DNA of 25,316 bases, taken from positions 1 through 25,316 of IMG/VR virus record IMGVR_UViG_3300008952_000278; one strand, given 5' to 3'. The DNA comes from a virus. Of this stretch, positions 73 to 16,699 are shown piece by piece. Each line of letters starts with the position of its first letter. Within the stretch, counting starts at the first letter, position 1. The notes beneath the pieces were generated by a model. It was not told where the DNA came from. It did not search any database and worked only from the letters and a program-made list of their open reading frames with translations. Position numbers and translations under genes: made by a program.

Positions 73-573
73 ATGAAAACATTTCACATAGATGAGCCGA
101 GAGAAATCGGAAAGAAAAAGGTTAGAGTATCACCAAATGAGCTAAATGTGATAAAAAGTGATATTTATGAAAGATTAGTAAAAGAAGAGAAAATCATGAA
201 ACTAACAATGTCTGAATTGAAAGATGCGATAGATCAAGGTATAGAATCTGGATTTTTTGATGAAATTACAGAAGATATTATCGCGGATGATAAGGAAATG
301 TACGCTCTTATGGGAGCTTTTTTAACAGAGCTTAGAAAGAAAAGAGTAGTTAGAGGAAGAAAGATTTTTAAAAAAGTTATATGTCCAGGTAATAAAAGAT
401 ATGTACCAGCTCTCAAAAAATGTGTTATAAAAACTTCAAGAGAAAAGATGAAGAAACGGAGAGCAATGAAACGAGGCGCTATTAAGAAAAAAGGCAGAAT
501 GGGTCGTATTCTTAGAAGAAGACTGAAATCATTGAAGAAACGTAAAGCCTTTGGATTGAAGCGTGGAAGATAA
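73..573 (+). CDS. Small protein with Cys pair and strongly basic C-terminus
   Basis: The protein has 166 residues. The N-terminal 95 residues are mixed and acidic, with two predicted helices. A short segment then holds two cysteines (C104 and C117, CPG-x9-KKC pattern), followed by about 45 residues that are mostly Lys and Arg with almost no acidic residues. Such a tail would bind DNA or RNA, or be packaged with DNA, but no catalytic motif is visible. From memory, small phage proteins with a Cys-x10-12-Cys unit ahead of a basic tail occur in other marine T4-like phages, without known function. The stop overlaps the next start (TAATG at 571-575). No strong ribosome binding site precedes the ATG. 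Function unknown. Confidence 0.8.
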   Translation: MKTFHIDEPREIGKKKVRVSPNELNVIKSDIYERLVKEEKIMKLTMSELKDAIDQGIESGFFDEITEDIIADDKEMYALMGAFLTELRKKRVVRGRKIFKKVICPGNKRYVPALKKCVIKTSREKMKKRRAMKRGAIKKKGRMGRILRRRLKSLKKRKAFGLKRGR

Positions 574-3500
574 TGGACAGACTTACTGAATGGTTAGTTA
601 AACCCTATATAGAAAATATAAATGAGGATATAAATATACCTGTCAATGTTGGAGATACCATTTTAGTTGGTAGATTTAAAAATAAAAAAATGAAGGTCAA
701 GAGCATTGGTAAAGATGAACATGGTATGCCTACTATCAATGGTAGAAAAGCAACTACATTCAGAATTCCTAAAAAACAAGAAATAAAAGAAGGTGTAAAC
801 GATCCAGGTATACTTAAATGTGTATTTCTTGCAGGTGGCCCTGGAAGTGGTAAAACCTATATGACTAAAGGGTTATTTGGTATTCCAGATAGAATAAATG
901 TATCTAAATCAGGTATGAAAATGGTAAACTCAGATAAAGAGTTAAAATTTTTATTAAAGAAATTTGGGTTCGGTACTGATTTAGATAAAATGCCTGATGA
1001 ACTATTTAAACAATTAACCGATCCAAAAGATAAAGATTATAGTGGTTTTAGAGATTTTTCAAAAAGTTTAACTAAACAAAGAATGAAACAATATACTGAT
1101 GGTAGATTAGGTATTATAGTTGATGGTACTGGTCATAATTATGGTAAAATTTCTAAGATGAAAAAGGATGTAGAAAACTTGGGTTATGATACTTATATGA
1201 TTTTTATTAATACTACATTAGAGGTAGCATTAGAAAGAAATGAAAACAGAGATAGAATATTACCAAGAAATATTGTTGAAAAATCACATAGAGATGTAAT
1301 GAAAAATCTTGGTGGATTTCAAGGGTTATTTAAACAAAACTTTATGATAGCGGATAATAATGAAGATTTAGATGAGAAAAAAGCTGCTAAGAGATTTAAT
1401 ATGTTGGTTAAACAAGGTATTAATAAGTTTGTTAGAAAACCCATTCAAAATCCAATTGGAAAGGGTTGGGTTGAAAAACAAAAAATATTAGCAAAAAATG
1501 AAGGAATAGTTAGTGGTAATGGAACTATTATGGGAGCTCCTGATCCAAAAACAGTTAAAAAAATTAAAAAACAAGTAGATAATCAAAATAAAGATTTAAA
1601 ATATACAGATACATTTAGTTTACAACATCTTAATGAGTTTATAAATAAACCAAAGATGAAAAAGGCAATACAAAATTTAGTTGATAAAAATTTAATACCA
1701 AAAGTTTATGCTAAAAATACCAGAAAGTTACAAACTTTCCTTGTTAATAATCCAATGGTAATGACACAATTATTGAGAATACTTGGAGAAAAAGTTAATG
1801 AAGCATTTGCTGTAAGAGGTAGTAAGGTTGAAAAATTTATAACTGGTAAAAATCTTACACATAAGGGTAGAAAATATAAAGAGATAGAATTTGAAACAAT
1901 AAAAGTAGACAATCCTAAAAAAATGGTTACATTAAGAATCTTAGCACCTAAAAATTTATTTGGTCAAGAAGTACCTGTAAGATTTCAAACACTTCGAAGA
2001 GGCCCTTTTCTAAAAACCGATACAGGTAAAAAATTAAAAGAACAAAAAGAAATCAAAAAAGTTGTTGGTATCTATGGTGGTAGATTTCAACCGTTTGGCC
2101 CACATCATAAAAAAGTATATGAATGGATGAAGAAACAATTTGATGAAGTTTATATAGTTACATCTGATATTAAATCATTACCAAGACACCCAATGAATTT
2201 TAAAGAAAAAGTCCGTCATCTGGTTAAAATGGGTATTCCTAAGAAAAATATTGTTATGGAAAAAACACCATATAGAGCTATAAATACTTTAAAGAAATTT
2301 GATGAAGAAACTACAGCTGTTGTGTATGCTTTTGGAGCAAAAGATGCGGGTAGATTAAAAGCTGGTGCGTATTTTGAAGATTATAAAAAGAATAAAAACA
2401 ACATGGTTGGTTATAGAGAACAAGGATATATTGTAACCACACCACATTTTTCTATACAAGCGGGTGGAATGGAAGTAAGTGGTACGGCAATGAGACAATT
2501 ACTTGGTTCACCTAAGTATGCAGATGATAGGAAACGAAGATTTAAAAAATTCTTTGGTTATTTTGATCAAGGTGTCTATAATATGATGACTAATAAATTT
2601 AGTAAATTGTTTAGTGAAGATATAGTAATGTCTACAGAAGTTATACAAGAGTTTTTAACAGAGGTTGATATATCAAAATTATTAAAAGAATCTACTCTAA
2701 ATACTAAAGTACAGATAGATGATGGCCCAGTAACTTATTATAAGGGATTTAGTGATTATAAAAAGTATTCAACGGAGTGGATAGATTCAATATTTAAAGA
2801 AACTGGTTGGAAAGTTGTAGAATACGCGTTATCAGATAAGGCGATTGACCCAGCTTTTGATTATACTTTGAAGTATAGGTTTTTACCAACACCTTCATAT
2901 GGTACAACTGGTGTAGAGAAGATTGCATCTGGAAATCCTTCGTATGGTAGGTATAAAGAAAGAATTAATTTTATTTTATCAACTTTAGGATATGAGGTTT
3001 ATAAATGGATGGGCCTTGATGATAGTGATATGAAAGTTAAAGCACCTATTTTACCTGGTGCAGATAAAGATGTAGGGAATACAGATTTGAGAGAATCAAA
3101 GTTATTTTCTAAAGATTGGTGGACAGATCAGTTATTGATAGAGGAAATTTTAGAAATTGACCAAAGAATGACTTTAGAGGAAGGAATAAAGTTTAATAAC
3201 TTTTTAAAAGACTGGGCTAAAAAAGCAAAACAACCATTAGATAAAGTTAGAAAGTCAATGATGAACAAGAATACTTTTTCTGTTGCTAAATTAAATAATT
3301 TTAGTGTTGAAAAAGTATTTGATATGGCTAAGAAAGGGTTTAAAGCATATCAAAAAATTATCAACTATGTTCCTGATAAGATAGCGCAGAAATTAGCAAA
3401 GACTAAGTTTGGTGAAAAGAAAGAAAAAGCTTTAACTAAATTAGATGATTATTTAAAAGAACATCCAAAACTAAAAAGAGTAATGGGTTTAGGAGCAGCC

Positions 3501-5204
3501 GCGGCAGTAACTTATGCTTGGACTAAGATGACTTTTATCGGAGATCCAGAGTATGATTTAGATTTATCAGCAGCCGCCACAGCGGCCGCGACAGGAGATG
3601 TTAAGTTTGCAGATTTATTTAGTGGTCAAATGGGAACTAAATTTTTAGTATTAACTGTAGTTGGTGCTACTACAGGTTTGACAGCACCTTATGTAAAAGC
3701 GTTAGGTCGTGTTGGAACTATGGCAGCTGGTGTTGGGTTCGGTGCTTATAGAGCATATAAAGCTCGTAAACAAAGGAAAGCAGATGCCGAAAAGAAAACA
3801 AAAACATCTGTTCCAGATACCGTAAAGAATCCTAATCCAAAGGGTAGAAAGAAAACAGTTAGTCGTAAAAGTGCAGTTCAATGGGTAGCTAAAAATAAAG
3901 GAACAAAAGCTGCTAAGAAATACGCAAGAAGTTTGTCCGAAAGAGTTTCTATAGTTGAAGAATTAGATTTATTGTTGGAAGGTGGAGCATACGGACATAT
4001 GGCACATCCATTTGATGATAATAATTTAACTTTTGGGGATTTGAGGAACATAATTATATTAGGACTTGGTGGAAAACTAAGTCGTGAAGATAATGTTACA
4101 GAGAAACTTGACGGACAAAACCTAATGGTAAGTTGGGTTGATGGAGAATTAAGAGCCGCTCGTAATAAAGGACATTTGAAAAGTTATGGTAAATCATCAT
4201 TAACTACAAGTGGAGTAAAGAGTTTATTTAGTGGTAGAGGTGATGTGAAAGATGCTTTTGTAGGAGCTATGACAGATTTAGAAAACGCAATAGGTAGATT
4301 ATCAGATGCACAAAAAGAAAAAATATTCGGTAATGGTAAACGATGGATGAATTTAGAAATTATGTATCCTAAAACTGCAAATGTAGTTGATTATGATGTT
4401 GCAGAAATAGTATTTCATGGTACATTAGAGTATGATGAAAGTGGTAAACCAATAGGACAACCAAGAGATTCAGCTCGTATGTTGGCAGGTATGATTAAAC
4501 AAGTAAATGCAAATGTTCAAAAAACATTTAAAATTGGTAAACCTAATTTTTTAAAAATACCTAAAAATCAAAATTTTGGTAAATTAAAAAGAAAGTTTTT
4601 GGGTAGATTGAATAAATTACAAAAACAATATGCATTAACGAGTTCAGATTTATTAGGAGATTATCATAGAGCTTATTGGGAAGAATTTATTTTTAACGCG
4701 TCAAAACAATTTGATGTTAAATTAAAAAATAATCAATTAGTAAATCTGGTTAATAGATGGGCATTTTTTGATAAGTCATATAAGATACCAACGATAAAAA
4801 AAGATTTTAAAGATAATCCTAAATTTTTAGATTGGGTATTATCAACGGATAAACAAGACCATATGAAAATGTCAAAGAAAAATATTAAACCTTTTGAAGT
4901 TTTATTTTTTGAAGTTGGGGCAGAGATACTTAAAAATGTAAGTGGATATATAGCAGTCTCTCCAGATAAAACTGTTCAAAAAATTAGAAAAGAGGTTATA
5001 ACGGCTATTAAAGATTTAAAACAGAAAAAAAATGTAGAAAAATTAAAAAGTTTAAGAATACAATTAGAAAAATTAAAAGAAATTGGTGGATTGTCCGCAG
5101 TTGTTCCAAGTGAAGGAATAGTGTTTAAGTATAAAGGAAATATTTATAAGTTTACAGGTGCATTTGCTCCAATTAATCAGATTCTTGGGTCATTGAAATT
5201 TTAA
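573..5204 (+). CDS. Giant fusion: P-loop kinase, cytidylyltransferase-like domain, KxDG nucleotidyltransferase (ligase-type)
   Basis: The protein has 1543 residues and several domains. Residues about 20-63 look like a small beta-barrel (VGDTILVGRFKNKK). A zeta-toxin/polynucleotide-kinase-like P-loop domain follows: Walker A GGPGSGKT at 88-95, VDGTGHN at 183-189 and an Arg-rich lid RNENRDRILPR at 222-232. Residues 497-641 match the nucleotidylyltransferase superfamily (NMNAT/cytidylyltransferase fold), with GRFQPFGPHH at 503-512 and SGTAMR at 636-641. The middle has two hydrophobic stretches (about 970-991 and 1024-1060). The last 400 residues resemble a covalent nucleotidyltransferase/ligase: motif I K1178-L-D-G, motif Ia-like RAARNKG (1194-1200), motif IV-like EGIVFKY (1514-1520) and K1526 near the end. 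Kinase plus ligase suggests RNA or DNA end repair; kinase plus NMNAT-like fold could instead mean NAD metabolism. The domain calls are firm, the substrate is not. The gene lies upstream of the head genes and overlaps its predecessor by one base. Confidence 0.88.
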   Translation: MDRLTEWLVKPYIENINEDINIPVNVGDTILVGRFKNKKMKVKSIGKDEHGMPTINGRKATTFRIPKKQEIKEGVNDPGILKCVFLAGGPGSGKTYMTKGLFGIPDRINVSKSGMKMVNSDKELKFLLKKFGFGTDLDKMPDELFKQLTDPKDKDYSGFRDFSKSLTKQRMKQYTDGRLGIIVDGTGHNYGKISKMKKDVENLGYDTYMIFINTTLEVALERNENRDRILPRNIVEKSHRDVMKNLGGFQGLFKQNFMIADNNEDLDEKKAAKRFNMLVKQGINKFVRKPIQNPIGKGWVEKQKILAKNEGIVSGNGTIMGAPDPKTVKKIKKQVDNQNKDLKYTDTFSLQHLNEFINKPKMKKAIQNLVDKNLIPKVYAKNTRKLQTFLVNNPMVMTQLLRILGEKVNEAFAVRGSKVEKFITGKNLTHKGRKYKEIEFETIKVDNPKKMVTLRILAPKNLFGQEVPVRFQTLRRGPFLKTDTGKKLKEQKEIKKVVGIYGGRFQPFGPHHKKVYEWMKKQFDEVYIVTSDIKSLPRHPMNFKEKVRHLVKMGIPKKNIVMEKTPYRAINTLKKFDEETTAVVYAFGAKDAGRLKAGAYFEDYKKNKNNMVGYREQGYIVTTPHFSIQAGGMEVSGTAMRQLLGSPKYADDRKRRFKKFFGYFDQGVYNMMTNKFSKLFSEDIVMSTEVIQEFLTEVDISKLLKESTLNTKVQIDDGPVTYYKGFSDYKKYSTEWIDSIFKETGWKVVEYALSDKAIDPAFDYTLKYRFLPTPSYGTTGVEKIASGNPSYGRYKERINFILSTLGYEVYKWMGLDDSDMKVKAPILPGADKDVGNTDLRESKLFSKDWWTDQLLIEEILEIDQRMTLEEGIKFNNFLKDWAKKAKQPLDKVRKSMMNKNTFSVAKLNNFSVEKVFDMAKKGFKAYQKIINYVPDKIAQKLAKTKFGEKKEKALTKLDDYLKEHPKLKRVMGLGAAAAVTYAWTKMTFIGDPEYDLDLSAAATAAATGDVKFADLFSGQMGTKFLVLTVVGATTGLTAPYVKALGRVGTMAAGVGFGAYRAYKARKQRKADAEKKTKTSVPDTVKNPNPKGRKKTVSRKSAVQWVAKNKGTKAAKKYARSLSERVSIVEELDLLLEGGAYGHMAHPFDDNNLTFGDLRNIIILGLGGKLSREDNVTEKLDGQNLMVSWVDGELRAARNKGHLKSYGKSSLTTSGVKSLFSGRGDVKDAFVGAMTDLENAIGRLSDAQKEKIFGNGKRWMNLEIMYPKTANVVDYDVAEIVFHGTLEYDESGKPIGQPRDSARMLAGMIKQVNANVQKTFKIGKPNFLKIPKNQNFGKLKRKFLGRLNKLQKQYALTSSDLLGDYHRAYWEEFIFNASKQFDVKLKNNQLVNLVNRWAFFDKSYKIPTIKKDFKDNPKFLDWVLSTDKQDHMKMSKKNIKPFEVLFFEVGAEILKNVSGYIAVSPDKTVQKIRKEVITAIKDLKQKKNVEKLKSLRIQLEKLKEIGGLSAVVPSEGIVFKYKGNIYKFTGAFAPINQILGSLKF

Positions 5205-6678: not shown

Positions 6679-7049
6679 TGAAATGGTTGATAGGACTTTT
6701 TCTATTGACGGGTTTATTAGGGCAGGTAACTTTAAGTGAAGAAGATGCGATAAACCTAACAAAGAATATACAAGATTTACAAGCTAAAACAGATAGCTTA
6801 AATAAAATTGTAATTCTACAAAATGACCTTATATTTACATATAAGGCTACGATTAGTCAAGACGATACTACTAAAAAATATTTAAATGAGACTATTGAAA
6901 GTTTAAAGAAAGAAAATAATTTATTGGAAAAAAAAACTAAGTTGGTTAAACCATCTTGGTATGAAAATAAATGGTTATATTTTACCTATGGGGCAATTTT
7001 ATCTTACGCGATAACATCTACAATTAATTCTATAACTAATATTTTATAA
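6678..7049 (+). CDS. Small membrane protein: N-terminal hydrophobic segment, coiled coil, C-terminal transmembrane helix
   Basis: The protein has 123 residues. Residues 1-20 (MKWLIGLFLLTGLLGQVTLS) form a signal or anchor segment without a lipobox cysteine. Residues about 22-95 are a heptad-like, Asn/Lys/Glu-rich coiled coil. Residues about 100-120 (LYFTYGAILSYAITSTINSI) form a second hydrophobic helix after a WYENKW aromatic patch. The topology of two membrane segments flanking a coiled coil recalls spanin-like or holin-accessory proteins, but a unimolecular spanin would need a lipobox. No ribosome binding site is visible, so translation probably depends on coupling through the TAATG overlaps at both ends. 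Function unproven. Confidence 0.75.
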   Translation: MKWLIGLFLLTGLLGQVTLSEEDAINLTKNIQDLQAKTDSLNKIVILQNDLIFTYKATISQDDTTKKYLNETIESLKKENNLLEKKTKLVKPSWYENKWLYFTYGAILSYAITSTINSITNIL

Positions 7050-8635
7050 TGACATCAGGTAAAAAACAATTAAAACAAGCAATTCGTACCGAATTTTTAA
7101 AATGCGCACAGGATCCTGTATATTTTTTGAGAAAGTATTGTGTGATACAACATCCTCAAAAGGGTAAAATTAAATTTAATTTATATGACTATCAAGAAGA
7201 TACCATTAGAGAATTTGTAGAAAATGAATATAATATTATTCTGAAGGCACGTCAGTTAGGCATATCTACATTAACTGCAGGATATGCACTTTGGTTGATG
7301 ACTTTTTATAATGATAAAAATATTTTGGTTATTGCTACAAAACAAGAAGTTGCGAAAAATTTGGTTACAAAAGTTCGTGTGATGCATGCTAATTTACCAA
7401 CTTGGTTGACTCAAAATTGTGTAGAAGATAATAAATTAAGTTTACGATATAGTAATGGGTCACAGGTAAAGGCAGTTGCTAGTTCTGATGAAGCAGGTAG
7501 GTCAGAAGCCTTATCTTTATTAATACTTGATGAGGCAGCATTTATTGATAAAATTGATAGTATATGGACAGCGGCATCCCAGACATTAGCATTAGGTGGA
7601 AGGTGTATAGCACTTTCTACACCAAATGGTGTTGGTAATTGGTTTCATCAAACTTGGGTTGGTGCGGAAGATAAATTAAATAGTTGGAATACTACAAAAT
7701 TACATTGGACTGTACATCCAGAAAGAGATATGGAATGGAGAACCAGTCAAGATAAATTATTAGGGCCTTCAAATGCCGCTCAAGAATGTGATTGTGACTT
7801 TATCACTTCTGGTCAAAGTGTAGTTGATGGTGTTATATTAGAAGAATATAGAACTAATGTTTGTAAAGACCCAATTGAAAAACGAGGTGTTGATAGTAAT
7901 TTATGGGTTTGGGAGCCACCTAATTATACTAAAAATTATGTAGTGAGTGCTGACGTTAGTAGAGGAGATGGAACAGACTATTCTGCGTTTCATGTAATGG
8001 AAGTAGAAGAATGTAAACAAGTAGCAGAGTATAAAGGTAGAATGTCTACAAGAGATTTTGGAAACTTGGTTGTTAATATCGCAAAAGAGTATAATGACGC
8101 GTTATTAGTTATTGAGAATAACAATATTGGTTGGGCGGCTATTCAACAAGCGATAGATAGGGATTATGATAATTTATTTTATATGAGTAAAGATTTACAA
8201 TATGTAGATACACAAAAACAGATGACAAATAAATTATATAGAGAATCTAAGCAAATGGTACCTGGATTTACAATGTCTATGAAGACAAGACCATTAGTGG
8301 TATCAAAATTAGAAGAATTTTTTAGAGAAAAGGCTGTAACAGTACATTCAACGAGGTTAATTGATGAGTTGTTTGTATTTATATATAACGGACAAAGAGC
8401 AGAAGCAATGACTGGATACAATGATGATCTTGTTATATCCTTTGGTATAGCTCTTTGGATAAGAGAAACAGCTTTAAGGTTAAGGTCTGAGGGAATAGAG
8501 TTGTCTAAAAAGGCAATTAATTCCATAGATATGAATCCTGGTGTATATTCAAGTAAACCTGAAAATGATAGTTGGACTTGGGACATTGGGAAAGGTAATA
8601 GAGAGGATTTAAGTTGGTTAGTAGAAAAACAATAA
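7049..8635 (+). CDS. terL: Terminase large subunit (packaging ATPase and nuclease)
   Basis: The protein has 528 residues, within the usual range. It is the motor that pumps DNA through the portal and cuts the concatemer. The ATPase domain shows an atypical Walker A, KARQLGIST at 66-74, Walker B LLILDEAAF with D161-E162, and a coupling motif STPNG shortly after. The RNase H-like nuclease domain shows acidic residues D302 (ADVSRGDGTDY), E356 (IENNN) and D459/D460 (NDDLVISFG), the three-acid pattern of T4 gp17-type terminases. The gene starts inside the TAATG at the end of the previous gene with no ribosome binding site. The portal follows 9 bases downstream. No small terminase subunit is recognisable nearby. 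Confidence 0.96.
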   Translation: MTSGKKQLKQAIRTEFLKCAQDPVYFLRKYCVIQHPQKGKIKFNLYDYQEDTIREFVENEYNIILKARQLGISTLTAGYALWLMTFYNDKNILVIATKQEVAKNLVTKVRVMHANLPTWLTQNCVEDNKLSLRYSNGSQVKAVASSDEAGRSEALSLLILDEAAFIDKIDSIWTAASQTLALGGRCIALSTPNGVGNWFHQTWVGAEDKLNSWNTTKLHWTVHPERDMEWRTSQDKLLGPSNAAQECDCDFITSGQSVVDGVILEEYRTNVCKDPIEKRGVDSNLWVWEPPNYTKNYVVSADVSRGDGTDYSAFHVMEVEECKQVAEYKGRMSTRDFGNLVVNIAKEYNDALLVIENNNIGWAAIQQAIDRDYDNLFYMSKDLQYVDTQKQMTNKLYRESKQMVPGFTMSMKTRPLVVSKLEEFFREKAVTVHSTRLIDELFVFIYNGQRAEAMTGYNDDLVISFGIALWIRETALRLRSEGIELSKKAINSIDMNPGVYSSKPENDSWTWDIGKGNREDLSWLVEKQ

Positions 8636-8644
8636 GAGGTAAAA

Positions 8645-10480
8645 ATGGCTGATAAATCATTATTTGCAAGACTTGGTAGACTTTTTTCATCTAACGTTAT
8701 TGTTAGAAACGTTGGTGGTAGAAAGCTAAAGATTGTAGATACAAGTAATAGTCAATATCTGCCAAGACAAGCGTTAGTAGATAGATTTACAAGACTTCAT
8801 AGTGGTCTGGGATATGCAGGTTATGGAGATATAGACTTAGTAAGGTCTACACGTTTAGGGTTATTTAAAGATTATGAACAAATGGATTCAGATTCAATTA
8901 TAGCATCGGCACTTGATGTCTATGCAGATGAATCCACAATGAAATCTGAATATGGTGATGTCTTAACCATATCTACAGAGAATAATAATATAAAAGAGAT
9001 ATTAAATAATTTATACTATGATGTATTGAACATAGAATTTAATCTATGGCCATGGGTACGTAATATGTGTAAGTATGGAGACTTTTTCTTGAATTTAAAA
9101 ATTGACGAAAAGTATGGGATAACTAATGTAGTTCCATTACCAGTCTATGATGTATCAAGATTAGAAGGTTTAAACCCAGAGAATCCAGAGTATGTTAAAT
9201 TTATGTTAGAATCATCTGGAAAAGATGGACAATCTGCACGTCATAGTCAGAGTGTAGTTAAAAAAGAATTTGAAAATTTTGAAATAGCACATTTTAGGTT
9301 ATTGAGTGATTCCAATTTCTTACCTTATGGTAAAGGTATGATTGAAGGAGCTCGTAAAACATGGAAACAACTTTCATTAATGGAAGATGCTATGTTGATT
9401 CATAGAATTATGAGGGCTCCTGAAAAGAGAATCTTTAAAATTGATATTGGTAATATTCCTCCAGGTGAGGTTGATAATTATATGAACCAAATCATTAATA
9501 AGATGAGAAAAGCACCAATTGTTGATGAAGCTACTGGTGATTATAATCTTAAATACAATATGCAAAATATTTCAGAAGATTTCTTCTTACCAGTTCGTGG
9601 TGGAGATAGTGGAACACAAATAGATACTGCTCCAGGATTAACTTACGAAGCAATTGAAGATATAGAATATTTAAAAAATAGAATGTTAGCGGCGTTGAGA
9701 GTTCCAAAAGCATTTTTAGGATTTGATGAAAATGTTGGTGAAAGAGCTACATTGGCCGCACAAGATGTAAGATTTGCAAGAACTATTGAAAGAATACAAA
9801 GAATCGTAGTTAGTGAGTTAACAAAGATTGGTATTGTTCATTTATATGCACAAGGATATACAGACCAAGAACTTGTTAATTTTGAATTGAATCTTACAAA
9901 TCCATCTACAATTTATGAACAAGAAAAAGTTGCGTTGTGGAGTGAAAAAACACAATTAGCATCTTCAATGTTACAAGATGGTATTGTTTCTACTGCATGG
10001 ATTTATGAAAATATTTTTAATTTTACGGATGATGAAATAAAAGAACTTGATAATGAGATAGTTTTTGATTTTAAACAGAAGTTCAGACGTTCACAAATAG
10101 AAGCTGAGGGTAATGATCCTGCAAAAAGTGGTGAAGCGGCAGGAACACCATCAGATATGGCAATGGGAAGAACTGGTCATGAATTAAATAATGAAGTTGG
10201 GCCTGAAGGCGGTTCACCTGAAGGTGGTTGGAATGGTGCTGGTAGACCAGTAGAACCTGCACATTATGCGAAAGATAAACACGTAAGAGGTCGTGACCCA
10301 TTGGGAAGTCATAAAATGAAACGAGATACATCATCTGATCCTAAATTGGGAAGAAATTTAGCCCTCGCGCATGTTGAAAAGTTGAAAGGAACACTAATAA
10401 AAGAAAAAGATTATAAATTATTAAACGAATCTGAAAAAATACAGGAAGAATATGATGAAGAAGTTAAACCTAAAGTTTAA
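8645..10480 (+). CDS. 20: Portal vertex protein (T4 gp20-like)
   Basis: The protein has 611 residues, slightly longer than T4 gp20. It would form the dodecameric channel at the head vertex that initiates head assembly and docks the terminase. Features typical of the family are DSDSIIASALDVYADEST near residue 80, NLWPWVRNMCKYGDFF near 135, and ALRVPKAFLGFDENVGERATLA near 355, followed by QDVRFARTIERIQRIV. The last 110 residues are a Gly/Pro/Glu-rich, probably disordered extension. GAGG sits 5 bases before the ATG. Position directly after the terminase and before core, scaffold and capsid genes matches the T4 head operon order 17-20-core-22-23, except that the sheath and tube genes 18 and 19 are absent here. 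Confidence 0.95.
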   Translation: MADKSLFARLGRLFSSNVIVRNVGGRKLKIVDTSNSQYLPRQALVDRFTRLHSGLGYAGYGDIDLVRSTRLGLFKDYEQMDSDSIIASALDVYADESTMKSEYGDVLTISTENNNIKEILNNLYYDVLNIEFNLWPWVRNMCKYGDFFLNLKIDEKYGITNVVPLPVYDVSRLEGLNPENPEYVKFMLESSGKDGQSARHSQSVVKKEFENFEIAHFRLLSDSNFLPYGKGMIEGARKTWKQLSLMEDAMLIHRIMRAPEKRIFKIDIGNIPPGEVDNYMNQIINKMRKAPIVDEATGDYNLKYNMQNISEDFFLPVRGGDSGTQIDTAPGLTYEAIEDIEYLKNRMLAALRVPKAFLGFDENVGERATLAAQDVRFARTIERIQRIVVSELTKIGIVHLYAQGYTDQELVNFELNLTNPSTIYEQEKVALWSEKTQLASSMLQDGIVSTAWIYENIFNFTDDEIKELDNEIVFDFKQKFRRSQIEAEGNDPAKSGEAAGTPSDMAMGRTGHELNNEVGPEGGSPEGGWNGAGRPVEPAHYAKDKHVRGRDPLGSHKMKRDTSSDPKLGRNLALAHVEKLKGTLIKEKDYKLLNESEKIQEEYDEEVKPKV

Positions 10481-10540: not shown

Positions 10541-11422
10541 ATGTCTAAAAAAATAAAACACACTAAAATTAAAAATACAGGTGTGCTATTTGAAGTGCTG
10601 ACTCGTCAAGTCACCGCCGATATAATAGAAAATAGAGATTCAAAATCTATTAATTTAATAAAAAAATATTTTAATAAAACAACTAATTTGGGACAAGAAT
10701 TAGATTTATATAATATATTGGTAAATGAAAGTTATAAAAGTTCACATAATGCAAATAGACTTGTTGAAGCGGTAGTTAAATCTCGACAAAAATTGTCAAC
10801 TGTGAGTTTAAGACGAGAAAAATATAATCTTATTAAAGAATTAAAGGATAAGTATGACGTAAATAAACTATTTGCTACTCGTATCCCAAATTATAAAAAA
10901 TTAGCATCAATCTATAAAATTTTTGAACATGAAAGTACAGAAAAATCACTTAGACCAGATGAATATGTTAATGTTCGTTCTTATTTAACAGAAAGTATAT
11001 GTGCTGAAAAAGTAGGTAGGACGGAACAACAATCTAATGTTGTAGCAGAAGATAAAGAAATTAGATTATTGGCTTATTCACTTATGGTGGAAAAATTTAA
11101 TAAGAAATATTCTAATTTGACTGAAAAACAGAAGATGATACTAAAGAAATATATTAATAATATTTCTAATACGAGTAATTTACACGAATATGTTTCTGAA
11201 GAGGTTATGGGAATTAAAACAGAATTGACTAAACTTTTACCAGAAGTAACTGATAAAATAACTAAAATAAAACTATCAGAAGTAATAAAACAGTTAGATG
11301 CAATGACTGTAGGTAAGAAAAGAATAAGTGAAAAGGCACTTATTGCTTTAATGAGATACTATGAGCTAATTGAGGAATTAAAAGATGTCAGTAAACGACA
11401 ATCTAAGACAATTAATTCGTAA
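10541..11422 (+). CDS. Unknown protein in the prohead-core position
   Basis: The protein has 293 residues, is basic and largely helical, with no signal peptide or membrane segment. It begins MSKKIKHTKIKNTGVLFEVL, then NLIKKYFNKTTNLGQELDLY; conserved-looking Lys/Tyr/Asn-rich helices follow to the C-terminus. I see no catalytic triad, so it does not look like the gp21-type protease that T4 has in this area. From memory, similar proteins follow the portal in other marine T4-like phages, uncharacterised. A good TTGGAG lies 6 bases before the ATG. Its 3' end overlaps the next gene by 38 bases. It is the first gene after the candidate promoter at 10498. Confidence 0.82.
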   Translation: MSKKIKHTKIKNTGVLFEVLTRQVTADIIENRDSKSINLIKKYFNKTTNLGQELDLYNILVNESYKSSHNANRLVEAVVKSRQKLSTVSLRREKYNLIKELKDKYDVNKLFATRIPNYKKLASIYKIFEHESTEKSLRPDEYVNVRSYLTESICAEKVGRTEQQSNVVAEDKEIRLLAYSLMVEKFNKKYSNLTEKQKMILKKYINNISNTSNLHEYVSEEVMGIKTELTKLLPEVTDKITKIKLSEVIKQLDAMTVGKKRISEKALIALMRYYELIEELKDVSKRQSKTINS

Positions 11423-12101
11423 ATATATTAAGGAAGTTCTCAAAGAACTGGAAGAAACATCTTTTAGTAGTGGAGCGGGAGCCTATAATACACCTTTTGC
11501 TTTTAGTGGGGGTAGAGACAAGGATAAAAAGAAAAAGAAGAACGTATCAACTAATTCTACAGGATATAAAATAGTAGAAGCGGCGAAGGTAAGAAAAGTA
11601 GTACTTGAAGTACCAAAAAATATTTATGGAATGAAACTAACTAAATCAAAATTAAGAGAAATCATTAGAGAAGAAATTCAGTCTATTAAAGAAGGCGGAA
11701 TGGGTATATTAGATTCAGACCAAGCAGATATATTACAAGCAATAGTAATGAGAAATAAAAGTAAACCCACGAGAGCTATTCTAAATCTTGCACTAAAGAG
11801 TGGACATTTTAAAGGTGTTGATAAAAAAGAATTATTAGGATATATTGACGGAGCAAGACAATTTGTTAAATATATGAAAAGTCATCCAATAAATGCTATA
11901 AAAGAAATTAGTGGTATAGATTTAGCAAAAAAAGTTGTTAAAAATAAACAATACGAAAAGGGTATGGATTTATTTACAGCTCAATATATTGTTCAAACAT
12001 ATGATGCATACAAAAATCATCCTGAGTTGAGAAAGAAAATCGAAAAGCTATCAGTTCCTAAAGCAGTCAAGTTGGCAAACTTGGTAATGAAAGGTAGATA
12101 A
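11385..12101 (+). CDS. Prohead-core-position protein with two copies of an amphipathic targeting-like helix
   Basis: The protein has 238 residues. It starts inside the previous gene in another frame, with GAGG at 11372-11375 nine bases before the ATG. Two short amphipathic helices are alike: LRQLIRKYIKEVLKE near the start (7-21) and LTKSKLREIIREEIQSIKE at 85-103. The first is followed by a Ser/Gly linker (SSGAGAYNTPFAFSGG) and a Lys run. The second leads into a helical domain to the end. The second helix begins just after an internal Met (83), so the protein reads like two short core proteins joined end to end. Function unknown; internal head protein is an inference from position and the helix motif. 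Confidence 0.8.
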   Translation: MSVNDNLRQLIRKYIKEVLKELEETSFSSGAGAYNTPFAFSGGRDKDKKKKKNVSTNSTGYKIVEAAKVRKVVLEVPKNIYGMKLTKSKLREIIREEIQSIKEGGMGILDSDQADILQAIVMRNKSKPTRAILNLALKSGHFKGVDKKELLGYIDGARQFVKYMKSHPINAIKEISGIDLAKKVVKNKQYEKGMDLFTAQYIVQTYDAYKNHPELRKKIEKLSVPKAVKLANLVMKGR

Positions 12102-12349
12102 TGATTAAGTTAAAAGAAATTATCAAAGAAGAAGATTATAATAAACAATACGTAAAAGAAGCTTATCGTACTCCTGATGAATTAGGTGCAGCTATGCGTC
12201 GTAGTATAGATGAATTATCCGTTGTTTTAAAGAAAGCACAAAAAGGAAGATTAGGTCCAGAAGGATGGGCAAAAAAATATTTTAGGAGTGCTCCAAAAGC
12301 AATTGAGATGATTGAACATCTAATTGGTATACTGAAAAAAATGAAATGA
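12101..12349 (+). CDS. Small core-position protein, MIKLKEIIKEE start
   Basis: The protein has 82 residues. Its start MIKLKEIIKEEDYNK resembles the short amphipathic helices of its neighbours and has an I-K-E tripeptide that would fit T4-type prohead protease cleavage. The body is helical and basic (MRRSIDELSVVLKKAQKGRL, then EMIEHLIGILKKMK). AAAGGT six bases before the ATG serves as ribosome binding site, and the start also overlaps the previous stop (TAATG). No family recognised. Possible packaged internal protein. Confidence 0.75.
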   Translation: MIKLKEIIKEEDYNKQYVKEAYRTPDELGAAMRRSIDELSVVLKKAQKGRLGPEGWAKKYFRSAPKAIEMIEHLIGILKKMK

Positions 12350-12636
12350 TTAAGTTAAAACATATATTAACAGAGAAAAGAGAATTAGGTGGTGCAATAA
12401 TAGATAAGATTCACGACTTAACTGATAAAAATGCTCATAATATGGCTAGACTTACACTTGCTAAAGCAATGAGAAATAAAATTCTTATGAAAAATTACGA
12501 AGCATTAATGACATTACATACAAAACTTCGTGATATGAATGATTTAACCTCAGCTCGTAATAGGTTAGATAAAGAATTATTTGCTCAAGCAAAAAAAATG
12601 TATAGTGATTATGATATAATATATGGAGCATTTTAG
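12346..12636 (+). CDS. Small core-position protein, MIKLKHILTEK start
   Basis: The protein has 96 residues. It begins MIKLKHILTEKRELGG, sharing the first five residues with the preceding protein (MIKLK) and carrying L-T-E, a possible prohead protease site. The rest is helical and basic with many Met, Lys and Asn. The start overlaps the previous stop as ATGA and lacks a clear ribosome binding site, implying translational coupling. No family recognised. Confidence 0.73.
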   Translation: MIKLKHILTEKRELGGAIIDKIHDLTDKNAHNMARLTLAKAMRNKILMKNYEALMTLHTKLRDMNDLTSARNRLDKELFAQAKKMYSDYDIIYGAF

Positions 12637-12980
12637 TGAGTAAAAAATCAATATATAAACAGTTAATGACTGAATTAGATGAAGCACCTTTAAGTTCTAC
12701 ATCACAATTACCATTCAGTTCAACAGAGGCTAGACAATTAGTTGAAAAAGATGTAGTTGTAATGTCAAAGATTTTAGGAAAAGCATCACAACAATCCATT
12801 AAAACAATGATGAATGGTGTAAAAAGTGGTAAGTACGATGCTTTTGATTTACAAAGAGCAATAATGACAGGTCCTGTTAAAGATACTGGTACAGGACAAA
12901 GAGATATGATGAGAGCTTTGTGGAACCGAGTAAGAGATGGTTTCAGACGATATTCTAAAAGAGGAAAACTCAGAAAATAA
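12636..12980 (+). CDS. Small core-position protein with GTG start
   Basis: The protein has 114 residues. The GTG at 12636 overlaps the previous TAG, and GGAG at 12625-12628 lies 7 bases upstream, which decides this start. The N-terminus MSKKSIYKQLMTELDEAP again is a short basic-hydrophobic helix ending in acidic residues (L-D-E). The C-terminal 25 residues are very basic (RVRDGFRRYSKRGKLRK). No membrane segment or enzyme motif. An internal head or nucleic acid-binding protein is plausible but unproven. Confidence 0.75.
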   Translation: MSKKSIYKQLMTELDEAPLSSTSQLPFSSTEARQLVEKDVVVMSKILGKASQQSIKTMMNGVKSGKYDAFDLQRAIMTGPVKDTGTGQRDMMRALWNRVRDGFRRYSKRGKLRK

Positions 12981-15067: not shown

Positions 15068-16699
15068 ATGTCTAAAATGAAAAATCTTGGAACAATCGAA
15101 AAGTTGATGGATGGATATAATCCTTACCGTCAGCGTCAAGAAGAGACCCGCGGTTTAGTCAAGAAGTGGGAATCAACCGGTTTGTTAGAAGGTTTGAACG
15201 AAGAACAAAAAGTTCAGGGAATGGCAGTACTTCTTGAGAACCAAGCACGTCAGTTAATTGACGAAGCTAGTTCTACAGGTACATCAGCTAACTCAGAAGA
15301 GTGGAGCGGTGTTGCACTTCCTTTAGTTCGTAAAATCTTTGGTGAATTAGCAGCACAGGAATTCGTTTCTGTTCAGCCAATGAACCTACCTTCCGGTCTT
15401 ATATTTTATCTTGACTTTAAATACGGCACAGCACAACCTGGATTTGGTGATGGTGAGCAAGTATTTGGTGTAACATCAGGTAGTGGCGACCCAACAGCTG
15501 GACTTTATGGTGCAGGTAGATTCGGATATTCAATTAACGAAGCTACTAGTACAAGTCAAGCTACAGCAGCAATTACAGGTTCTGCAACTTGGGTAATGGT
15601 TGATTTTGAACCAGACTTGTCAAGTTCTTTAAGTAACTTAAAGTACTGCGATGTACCGTTGTCAACAATGTCAAACCCAGATAAAGAAGGTGTAAGAGCT
15701 TTCAAACCTACAGGTTCAGCAGCTCTTACAGCATATTACCCAGCATACACTAAAATCTTAAATGGTGTAGCAGGTAGTGAAGTTGCTCCTTCAGATACGA
15801 CGGCATCACACGTTCGCTTTATTATTGATGAAGGTTCAACAGCAGCTAACGTTTCTGTTCAATATCATAAAGCACCAACTGACACAACACGTGGTGACTT
15901 TGAAGATACACCAACTGAACCAGCAACTGATTCTGGTATCCCAGAAATCGATATCGCAATGCGTTCGATTCCTATCGTTGCTAAAACACGTAAGTTGAAA
16001 GCAGTTTGGACTCCTGAGTTAGCACAAGACTTAAATGCATACCATTCAGTTGATGCAGAAGCAGAACTTACTTCACTACTTAGTGAGTATGTATCAATGG
16101 AAATCGATCTTGAAATCCTTGATATGCTTCGTCTTAATGCTATTGCTAAGACAGAAAAATGGTCAGCAAAAGTTGGCTATGAGTTAAACGCCGCAGGAAC
16201 AGCATTTGAAGAAACATCTGCTAATTCAAACGCTTACACAAAAGGTGAGTGGTTCCAGACTCTTGGTAACAAGATACAGTCTGTTTCCAACGCAATTCAT
16301 CAGAAAACACTCAGAGGTGGAGCTAACTTTATTGTAGTTTCTCCTGAGATTGCTACAGTCCTTGAATCTATTCCTGGATACGCAACTGATTCTGATGGTG
16401 CTTCAACAAACAATTCTTACGCAATGGGCGTACAGAAAGCTGGAATGTTGAACAACAGATTCACAGTATATAAGAACCCATACCAGTTCGAGAATGTAAT
16501 TCTTGTTGGTTTCCGTGGAAGTAACTTCCTAGAAACAGGTGCTGTGTATGCTCCTTATGTACCGATGATTATGACACCTCTTGTATACGACCCAACTAAC
16601 TTTACTCCAAGAAAAGGTGTAATGACAAGATACGCTAAGGAAGTTGTCAGACCCGAATTCTACGGTAAAGTTGTCGTAGCAGACGTAGACAAAGTTTAA
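15068..16699 (+). CDS. 23: Major capsid protein (T4 gp23-like)
   Basis: The protein has 543 residues, close to T4 gp23 (521). The N-terminal propeptide (MSKMKNLGTIEKLMDGYNPY) ends in LLENQARQLIDEASSTG, where the L-I-D-E66|A67 junction fits the T4 prohead protease cleavage rule (I/L-x-E). Next comes the conserved segment WSGVALPLVRKIFGELAAQE, then VSVQPMNLPSGLIFYLDFKYG of the HK97-fold family. The C-terminus (RKGVMTRYAKEVVRPEFYGK) is also typical. AGGAG lies 8 bases before the ATG. An intrinsic terminator follows. Arg is mostly CGT/CGC (about 11 to 7 AGA by eye) and Asn is often AAC, unlike the AGA/AAT-rich neighbours, indicating selection for high expression. Confidence 0.96.
   Translation: MSKMKNLGTIEKLMDGYNPYRQRQEETRGLVKKWESTGLLEGLNEEQKVQGMAVLLENQARQLIDEASSTGTSANSEEWSGVALPLVRKIFGELAAQEFVSVQPMNLPSGLIFYLDFKYGTAQPGFGDGEQVFGVTSGSGDPTAGLYGAGRFGYSINEATSTSQATAAITGSATWVMVDFEPDLSSSLSNLKYCDVPLSTMSNPDKEGVRAFKPTGSAALTAYYPAYTKILNGVAGSEVAPSDTTASHVRFIIDEGSTAANVSVQYHKAPTDTTRGDFEDTPTEPATDSGIPEIDIAMRSIPIVAKTRKLKAVWTPELAQDLNAYHSVDAEAELTSLLSEYVSMEIDLEILDMLRLNAIAKTEKWSAKVGYELNAAGTAFEETSANSNAYTKGEWFQTLGNKIQSVSNAIHQKTLRGGANFIVVSPEIATVLESIPGYATDSDGASTNNSYAMGVQKAGMLNNRFTVYKNPYQFENVILVGFRGSNFLETGAVYAPYVPMIMTPLVYDPTNFTPRKGVMTRYAKEVVRPEFYGKVVVADVDKV

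Follow-up and report, generated by a model that had tools for sequence, protein, structure and literature searches.

A multi-enzyme phage protein with predicted prohead-protease sites at its module borders: a probable head-packaged polyprotein and candidate RNA-repair kit

We analyzed a 25,316-base IMG/VR virus record of a marine T4-like phage (IMGVR_UViG_3300008952_000278; this whole stretch is called the window) and found that the product of its open reading frame (ORF) 573-5204 is, on balance, probably a head-packaged polyprotein that is cut by a protease, injected and active in RNA repair. As we envisage it, the N-terminal leader would target the polyprotein to the prohead core, a protease of the T4 gp21 type would cut it after [LI]xE in its linkers, and the freed modules (an N module, a kinase, an NMNAT-like module, an RNA-ligase-type module and smaller ones) would be injected along with the DNA. 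In the host, the kinase and the ligase, joined in some relatives by a CCA-adding enzyme, would heal and seal RNA, chiefly tRNA cut by defence nucleases, and this repair would act ahead of phage gene expression. The sequences themselves show a modular build, conserved motifs, junctions enriched in sites, stand-alone leaders and head-gene synteny, and from these we infer packaging, cutting, injection and substrate. Packaging in the head and cutting are likely judging from sequence, an RNA repair role is about an even prospect, and a role in NAD restoration is improbable. The first-pass annotation, in which one polypeptide may repair cleaved nucleic acids or restore NAD, likely missed the organizing principle of head packaging and prohead-protease processing. 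Repair is still the best functional guess, and the single working fusion enzyme is probably wrong, a processed polyprotein being favored.

ORF 573-5204 (+ strand) is intact, with an ATG start, 1543 aa and 0 internal stops; one base of the start codon is shared with the stop codon of ORF 73-573. When all positions were recomputed, the length and motif residues given in the first-pass annotation were right (computed starts: GGPGSGK 88, VDGTG 183, RNENRDR 222, GRFQPFGPHH 503, SGTAMR 636, KLDGQN 1178 and EGIVFKY 1514). The protein is laid out as follows, with a slash marking each predicted cut and CYT denoting the nucleotidylyltransferase module.

573..626, + strand: N-terminal leader, residues 1-18 (MDRLTE/WLVKPYIENINE/), capsid-targeting-like, with [LI]xE at residues 6 and 18.
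627..776, + strand: N module, residues 19-68; its place varies in relatives, on either side of the kinase or following CYT.
783..791, + strand: predicted prohead-protease site IKE/GV, residues 71-73, at the N/kinase border.
792..1490, + strand: kinase module, residues 74-306, with GGPGSGK 88-94, VDGTG 183-187 and RNENRDR 222-228.
1503..2042, + strand: mid1, residues 311-490, a variable linker and small modules with predicted sites LNE/F 355, LGE/K 406 and LKE/Q 490.
2043..2642, + strand: CYT, NMNAT-like nucleotidylyltransferase, residues 491-690, with GRFQPFGPHH 503-512 and SGTAMR 636-641.
2643..2690, + strand: linker with predicted sites IQE/F 693, LTE/V 697 and LKE/S 706.
2691..3095, + strand: mid2, residues 707-841, with a low-confidence model; elsewhere it also precedes CYT.
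3174..3182, + strand: predicted site LEE/GI, residues 868-870.
3183..3941, + strand: mid3, residues 871-1123, small-residue-rich and weakly hydrophobic.
3972..3980, + strand: predicted site LLE/GG, residues 1134-1136, at the ligase border.
3981..5201, + strand: ligase-type KxDG module, residues 1137-1543, with K1178 LDG, ARNKG 1196, NLEIMYP 1260 and EGIVFKY 1514.

This architecture is not an assembly artefact, since independent contigs match it: three IMG/VR contigs (L004, L005 and L019) carry the C-terminal half of the ORF at 100%, and two others (L002 and L003, both 5'-truncated) keep the module order of the window through the ligase, L002 from the kinase and L003 from mid1, at about 73-76% identity in the best segment.

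Sequence and model support the kinase as a polynucleotide-kinase/zeta-type enzyme. It matches Pfam Zeta_toxin (3.7e-11, above the curated cut-off), and in a PDB profile search a profile built from its relatives matches PSTK and the C. thermocellum Pnkp kinase. In the AlphaFold model of residues 1-860, in which the kinase and CYT are good and mid1 and mid2 are of low confidence, Foldseek ranks the polynucleotide kinase of C. thermocellum first for the kinase, with a probability of 1.00 and a TM of ~0.69 on the target, and zeta toxins next. Walker A, a DxTx acceptor-site motif, an Arg lid and a Pnkp-like fold are all present in this module. The second domain, CYT, is supported in the same two ways as an NMNAT-like nucleotidylyltransferase: Pfam CTP_transf_like is matched at 1.6e-5, above the curated cut-off, the best PDB match of a profile from relatives is archaeal NMNAT, and the fold matches NaMNAT by Foldseek. 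CYT has the Rossmann-like NMNAT/cytidylyltransferase fold with GRFQPF and SGTxxR, but HxGH is incomplete in most members, Gly replacing its first His. Three of the motifs sit where active-site motifs would be in the secondary structure of the model: GGPGSGK and GRFQPFGPHH each link a strand to a helix, and a helix begins at SGTAMR.

The C-terminal module appears to be an RNA-ligase-type KxDG enzyme, an assignment more weakly supported by sequence and model than the other two. Its Pfam RNA_ligase match (E 0.06) lies below the cut-off, and for its model (pLDDT, the predicted local distance difference test, 80.8) Foldseek ranks 1-29 are all RNA or DNA ligases, but weak. Across 23 sequences, with identities as low as 45%, the ligase motifs KLDG, ARNKG, LExxxP and EGIV and a K further on show little or no variation. 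Motifs III and IV are ~250 residues apart, including a long helical region, a wider spacing than in T4 Rnl1. All three domain calls of the first-pass annotation were right in kind, the ligase being the less secure, and the kinase, CYT and ligase motif sets are all invariant or nearly so across relatives. The hydrophobic segments it had also reported fall below transmembrane level, with no 19-residue Kyte-Doolittle window >1.5; mid3 was rejected as transmembrane because no hydropathy window passed the threshold.

Among the relatives (74 IMG/VR loci, Microcystis phage Mel-JY01, which has CYT and the ligase in 639 aa, and others), we found 16 architectures in 31 non-redundant complete ORFs of 248 to 2463 aa. 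The ligase is the final module in all 31, CYT occurs in nearly all architectures, and several relatives encode the kinase in a gene of its own close by. HTVC008M and Melnitz are cultured phages with a stand-alone kinase. An inserted CCA-adding tRNA nucleotidyltransferase module is present in L011, L020 and L089 (PolyA_pol 3.7e-31, 1e-29 and 1.5e-29, respectively), that of L089 also matching the NCBIfam CCA tRNA nucleotidyltransferase at 3.6e-51; L011 also carries an inserted HD domain, and in L092 a ParB-like domain is weakly matched. The occurrence of CCA-adding modules in three relatives strengthens the repair reading. The Pnkp-like kinase, the RNA-ligase-type enzyme and these CCA modules would fit healing and sealing of cut tRNA, as has been proposed for separate jumbo-phage genes (PMC7824862).

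Other inserts were seen by eye: those of L022 (10955-12754) and L046 (6832-7686) look HNH- or zinc-finger-like (HMEPDHRIPF; CEECGESMKQIQYRHLKYKHNM), and a Pfam scan of the L022 insert gave no match. L089 (835-6555) is a 1907-aa relative in a contig of a Flavobacteriales metagenome-assembled genome (MAG) and has a ParB-like-looking segment, the CCA-adding module and a further domain (KEPKFFSVHTSPSFEQTF...).

The T4 prohead protease gp21 cuts after L/I-x-E (PMC9026906). We shuffled each linker of 28 non-redundant polyproteins with its composition kept (500 shuffles) and found 240 [LI]xE motifs in linkers compared to 135 ± 11 in the shuffled sequences, with 0 of the 500 shuffles reaching 240. For the strict form, which has a small P1' residue, the linkers held 86 compared to 31 ± 6. 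In folded module cores, the counts were 57 vs 119 ± 9 for the loose motif and 5 vs 30 ± 5 for the strict one. [LI]xE was present at 57 of 73 distinct module junctions (36.1 expected). Taken core by core, the strict motif was observed 0 times vs 6.0 expected in the kinase, 1 vs 5.7 in CYT and 11 vs 24 in the ligase; in the head-gene controls, it was not depleted in terminase (41 vs 34) and was somewhat low in portal (24 vs 39). Hence, with the strict motif rare within their cores, the modules should come through cutting intact. At the borders, [LI]xE/G stands at the kinase N-terminus in 17 of the 18 distinct sequences listed (by eye), the remaining one having VTE/G, and [LI]xE/GG lies exactly at the ligase border in about half of 48 sequences and ≤25 residues away in most others.

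For the T4 capsid targeting sequence, the first 10 residues are enough for head incorporation (PMC9026906). Stand-alone kinases open with 8-10 residues ending in [LI]xE/G (MIKLMDILLE/GVNDPG, MIKLKDLLYE/GVNDPG, MIRLSDLLQE/GIADAG, MIPFILKE/GLYDPG, MKTFAELQE/GVYDPN and also MIKLKDLLLE/G), a leader that, by its sequence, has the form of the T4 signal. Fused kinases retain the E/G border (IKE/GVNDPG, IRE/GVNDPG and ITE/GIYDPG), and a jumbo-phage stand-alone ligase starts MKFLKSYEEFLNE/NLILE/GG. The window protein itself begins with a T4-type leader (~6-20 residues ending in [LI]xE), MDRLTE/W. Overall, [LI]xE falls within the first 25 residues of 32/37 non-redundant module proteins; the corresponding counts are 0/19 for portals and 7/21 for terminases.

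T4-like terminase, portal and major capsid genes follow further along the + strand.

7049-8635, + strand: terminase gp17, T4-like, downstream of the polyprotein gene.
8645-10480, + strand: portal gp20, T4-like; the head-gene context with terminase spans 7049..10480.
15068-16699, + strand: major capsid gp23, T4-like, with the candidate site LIDE/ASST in its N-terminal region.

Hence, ORF 573-5204 heads a head-gene cluster. LIDE/ASST lies in the region where T4 gp23 is cut. Upstream of ORF 573-5204 there was no match to the T4 late promoter TATAAATA, whose matches lay only within genes or on the opposite strand. Many relatives encode, downstream of the polyprotein, a prohead protease homologue that shares ~60% identity with the Mel-JY01 one. 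It is present in L079, which matches the window at 98% identity in both terminase and portal, and there it follows the homologue of gene 11385-12101; at that place the window lacks it. The simplest account, unproven, is that the protease of the window's phage is displaced outside the fragment. Gene 11385-12101 (+ strand, 238 aa) has 8 [LI]xE vs 2.4 expected and looks like a fusion.

Published virion data bear on the packaging of such enzymes. The cytidylyltransferase T4-GC190 was detected in virions of cyanophage S-SM1 (PMC3037559), and its N-terminus reads MKKFSAFLNE/AER. S-CREM2 virions also contain a cytidylyltransferase, with a caution by the authors on co-purification (PMC10665884). Since these cytidylyltransferases belong to another subfamily, they back the principle and not the product of ORF 573-5204 itself. 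A KxDG protein (DUF6267) and a cytidylyltransferase are adjacent in HTVC008M (gp127-gp130) and S-SM1 (gp189-gp190), several with capsid-targeting-like leaders; in HTVC008M a zeta/Pnkp kinase stands alongside (the S-SM1 set has none), and of the three only the kinase was shown to be homologous to its counterpart in the window. These sets differ from the window in being separate genes, not one chain. In the loci L077 (3260-8504, HTVC008M gp126-gp130) and L094 (2451-7337, S-SM1 gp188-gp192), DUF6267 has a ligase-like KWDG...EG and lies beside cytidylyltransferases that have leader-like starts; these loci may hold the same kit spread over separate genes. Single-sequence hhalign gave nothing usable for a homology between DUF6267 and the ligase module or between the HTVC008M cytidylyltransferase and CYT, so we claim resemblance alone.

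Several results weigh against a packaged, processed repair polyprotein. For the ligase, the fold match is weak (best E 4.4e-3, TM ~0.2), and its sequence profile searched against the PDB found no solved relative. The shuffle tests count related sequences as independent, and the loose-motif depletion in cores comes mostly from the ligase, the kinase core not being depleted. Several ligase borders read LLLM or LLTC, not LxE, and a few have no [LI]xE in the 60 residues upstream. No recognizable prohead protease gene lies within the 25 kb of the window. The cyanophage cytidylyltransferases seen in virions belong to a separate subfamily (GRFNPPTVGH), and a single-sequence hhalign comparison gave no link between the HTVC008M cytidylyltransferase and CYT. 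Finally, some control motifs deviate too, e.g. E.[LI] by +7.2 standard deviations in linkers.

This last point also serves the strongest alternative, a single cytoplasmic multi-enzyme fusion that is late-made, repairs RNA/DNA ends and is neither packaged nor cut, its [LI]xE motifs being a by-product of charged amphipathic linkers. The [LI]..E spacing, like E.[LI], is enriched in linkers as well, and the enzyme motifs are conserved throughout. However, the linker [LI]xE count exceeds that of every composition-keeping shuffle and the strict form is rare in cores and not in terminase; the kinase retains its E/G leader border whether alone or fused; and the gene lies in a head cluster while its modules move independently. 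Hence, module shuffling together with the junction sites disfavors a single fusion enzyme, which we consider unlikely.

Still less probable is a packaged set for restoring NAD, with the NMNAT-like module and the kinase acting in NadR fashion against NAD-depleting defences. The best CYT profile match, the CYT fold and the presence of this module in nearly all architectures speak for such a set, and homology of cyanophage cytidylyltransferases to NMNAT has been discussed (PMC10665884). However, most members have Gly in place of the first His of HxGH (GPHH, GIHH or GAHH), HSGH being kept only in L032 and L039, and the kinase matches Pnkp and PSTK rather than ribosylnicotinamide kinase. NadR-family models, which combine NMNAT with ribosylnicotinamide kinase, gave no match, the best kinase matches being Pnkp, zeta and PSTK. 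The ligase and CCA-adding modules would also be left unexplained. Hence, the NAD restoration proposed in the first-pass annotation loses ground because the kinase resembles the Pnkp type and CYT mostly lacks the first His of HxGH. CYT is the least explained module and may supply NAD or modify another nucleotide.

We regard as very unlikely that the protein is a prohead core or head-assembly component with enzyme-like domains that are structural or act in assembly, comparable to the gp22, gp67 and gp68 core proteins that gp21 cuts up. The gene is beside head genes, and the neighboring gene 10541-11422 is the strongest multi-site candidate (observed/expected 2.48). However, the catalytic motifs of the ligase and kinase are invariant even where identity to the window falls to 43-45%, and the module cores contain few strict cleavage motifs, so that they should survive cutting. 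A zeta-toxin-like kinase of cell-wall precursors, in a set attacking the host instead of repairing, is equally improbable: Zeta_toxin is the best Pfam family of the kinase, and the domains of phage polyvalent proteins include zeta-type kinases (PMC5512222), but the best structural matches of the kinase are polynucleotide kinases, and its partners are a ligase-type module and, in relatives, a CCA-adding enzyme.

Among known systems, the polyvalent proteins (Iyer et al. 2017, PMC5512222) are the nearest concept to the packaged polyprotein that we favor. They too are large, combine several unrelated enzyme domains (zeta-type kinases among them) in variable architectures near late/packaging genes, and are predicted to be co-delivered with DNA; the proteins described here carry ≥2 unrelated activities per polypeptide in varying architectures. 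They differ in that a zincin-like peptidase of their own, a frequent though not obligatory feature, is proposed to process them (PMC5512222), whereas no peptidase domain was found in Pfam scans of the window protein or of the relatives scanned, and the linkers bear prohead-protease motifs. The capsid protease appears to take the processing role of the zincin domain here, with different enzymes. PMC5512222 makes no mention of polynucleotide kinase, cytidylyltransferase, nicotinamide, marine or cyanophage, and the RNA ligases that it treats are phage enzymes found elsewhere.

By analogy, the T4 internal proteins and the P1 Dar proteins are precedents for packaging. IPI-III and Alt of T4, which are cut by gp21 (PMC9026906), share the short leader ending in [LI]xE, the head-gene location, a protease gene (here in relatives) and the expected ejection; they have one leader and one function each, whereas here many sites lie between several enzymes. 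DarA, DarB and DdrB of P1 are large capsid-packaged anti-defence proteins with a capsid targeting signal and proteolytic processing; their domains are different, and the part of the source covered describes no multi-enzyme polyprotein with repeated prohead-protease sites (PMC9024508). Jumbo-phage RNA repair sets have the same activities (RNA ligase, polynucleotide kinase and CCA-adding enzyme) and are proposed to counter RNase effectors; they are separate genes, and the covered part of that source mentions no NMNAT-like partner, head packaging or processed fusion (PMC7824862). In the literature searched, with preprints and most subscription papers outside its coverage, we found no earlier account of a chain of several enzymes that a prohead protease cuts apart.

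Other genes of the window have similar features. The small protein of ORF 73-573 (+ strand) has a leader-like start, MKTFHIDE/P, and a very basic C-terminal half, and is possibly also packaged. Gene 10541-11422 (+ strand), after the portal gene, has 13 [LI]xE motifs vs 5.3 expected, its orthologue set giving the observed/expected ratio of 2.48 at z +13.9, and is a candidate prohead core protein cut at many sites. Three small genes on the + strand (12101-12349, 12346-12636 and 12636-12980) have the leader-like starts MIKLKEIIKEE, MIKLKHILTE/K and MSKKSIYKQLMTELDE/A, and possibly encode further packaged proteins. Host assignment from genome-collection matches was discarded as uninformative: the matching contigs come from MAGs that span three unrelated taxa and probably represent viral bins.

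Tentatively, the packaged-polyprotein reading may extend to a widespread family in which interchangeable, [LI]xE-bordered repair cassettes are packed as a single chain, cut apart within the prohead by the capsid maturation protease and injected, to serve RNA/tRNA repair, and possibly NAD supply, before phage expression. If so, the maturation of the phage head would also be a polyprotein-processing step, and the incoming genome would bring RNA repair with it before tRNA-cutting defences act on infection. The readable cleavage code would then let injected enzymes be mined from sequence in many uncultured marine phages.

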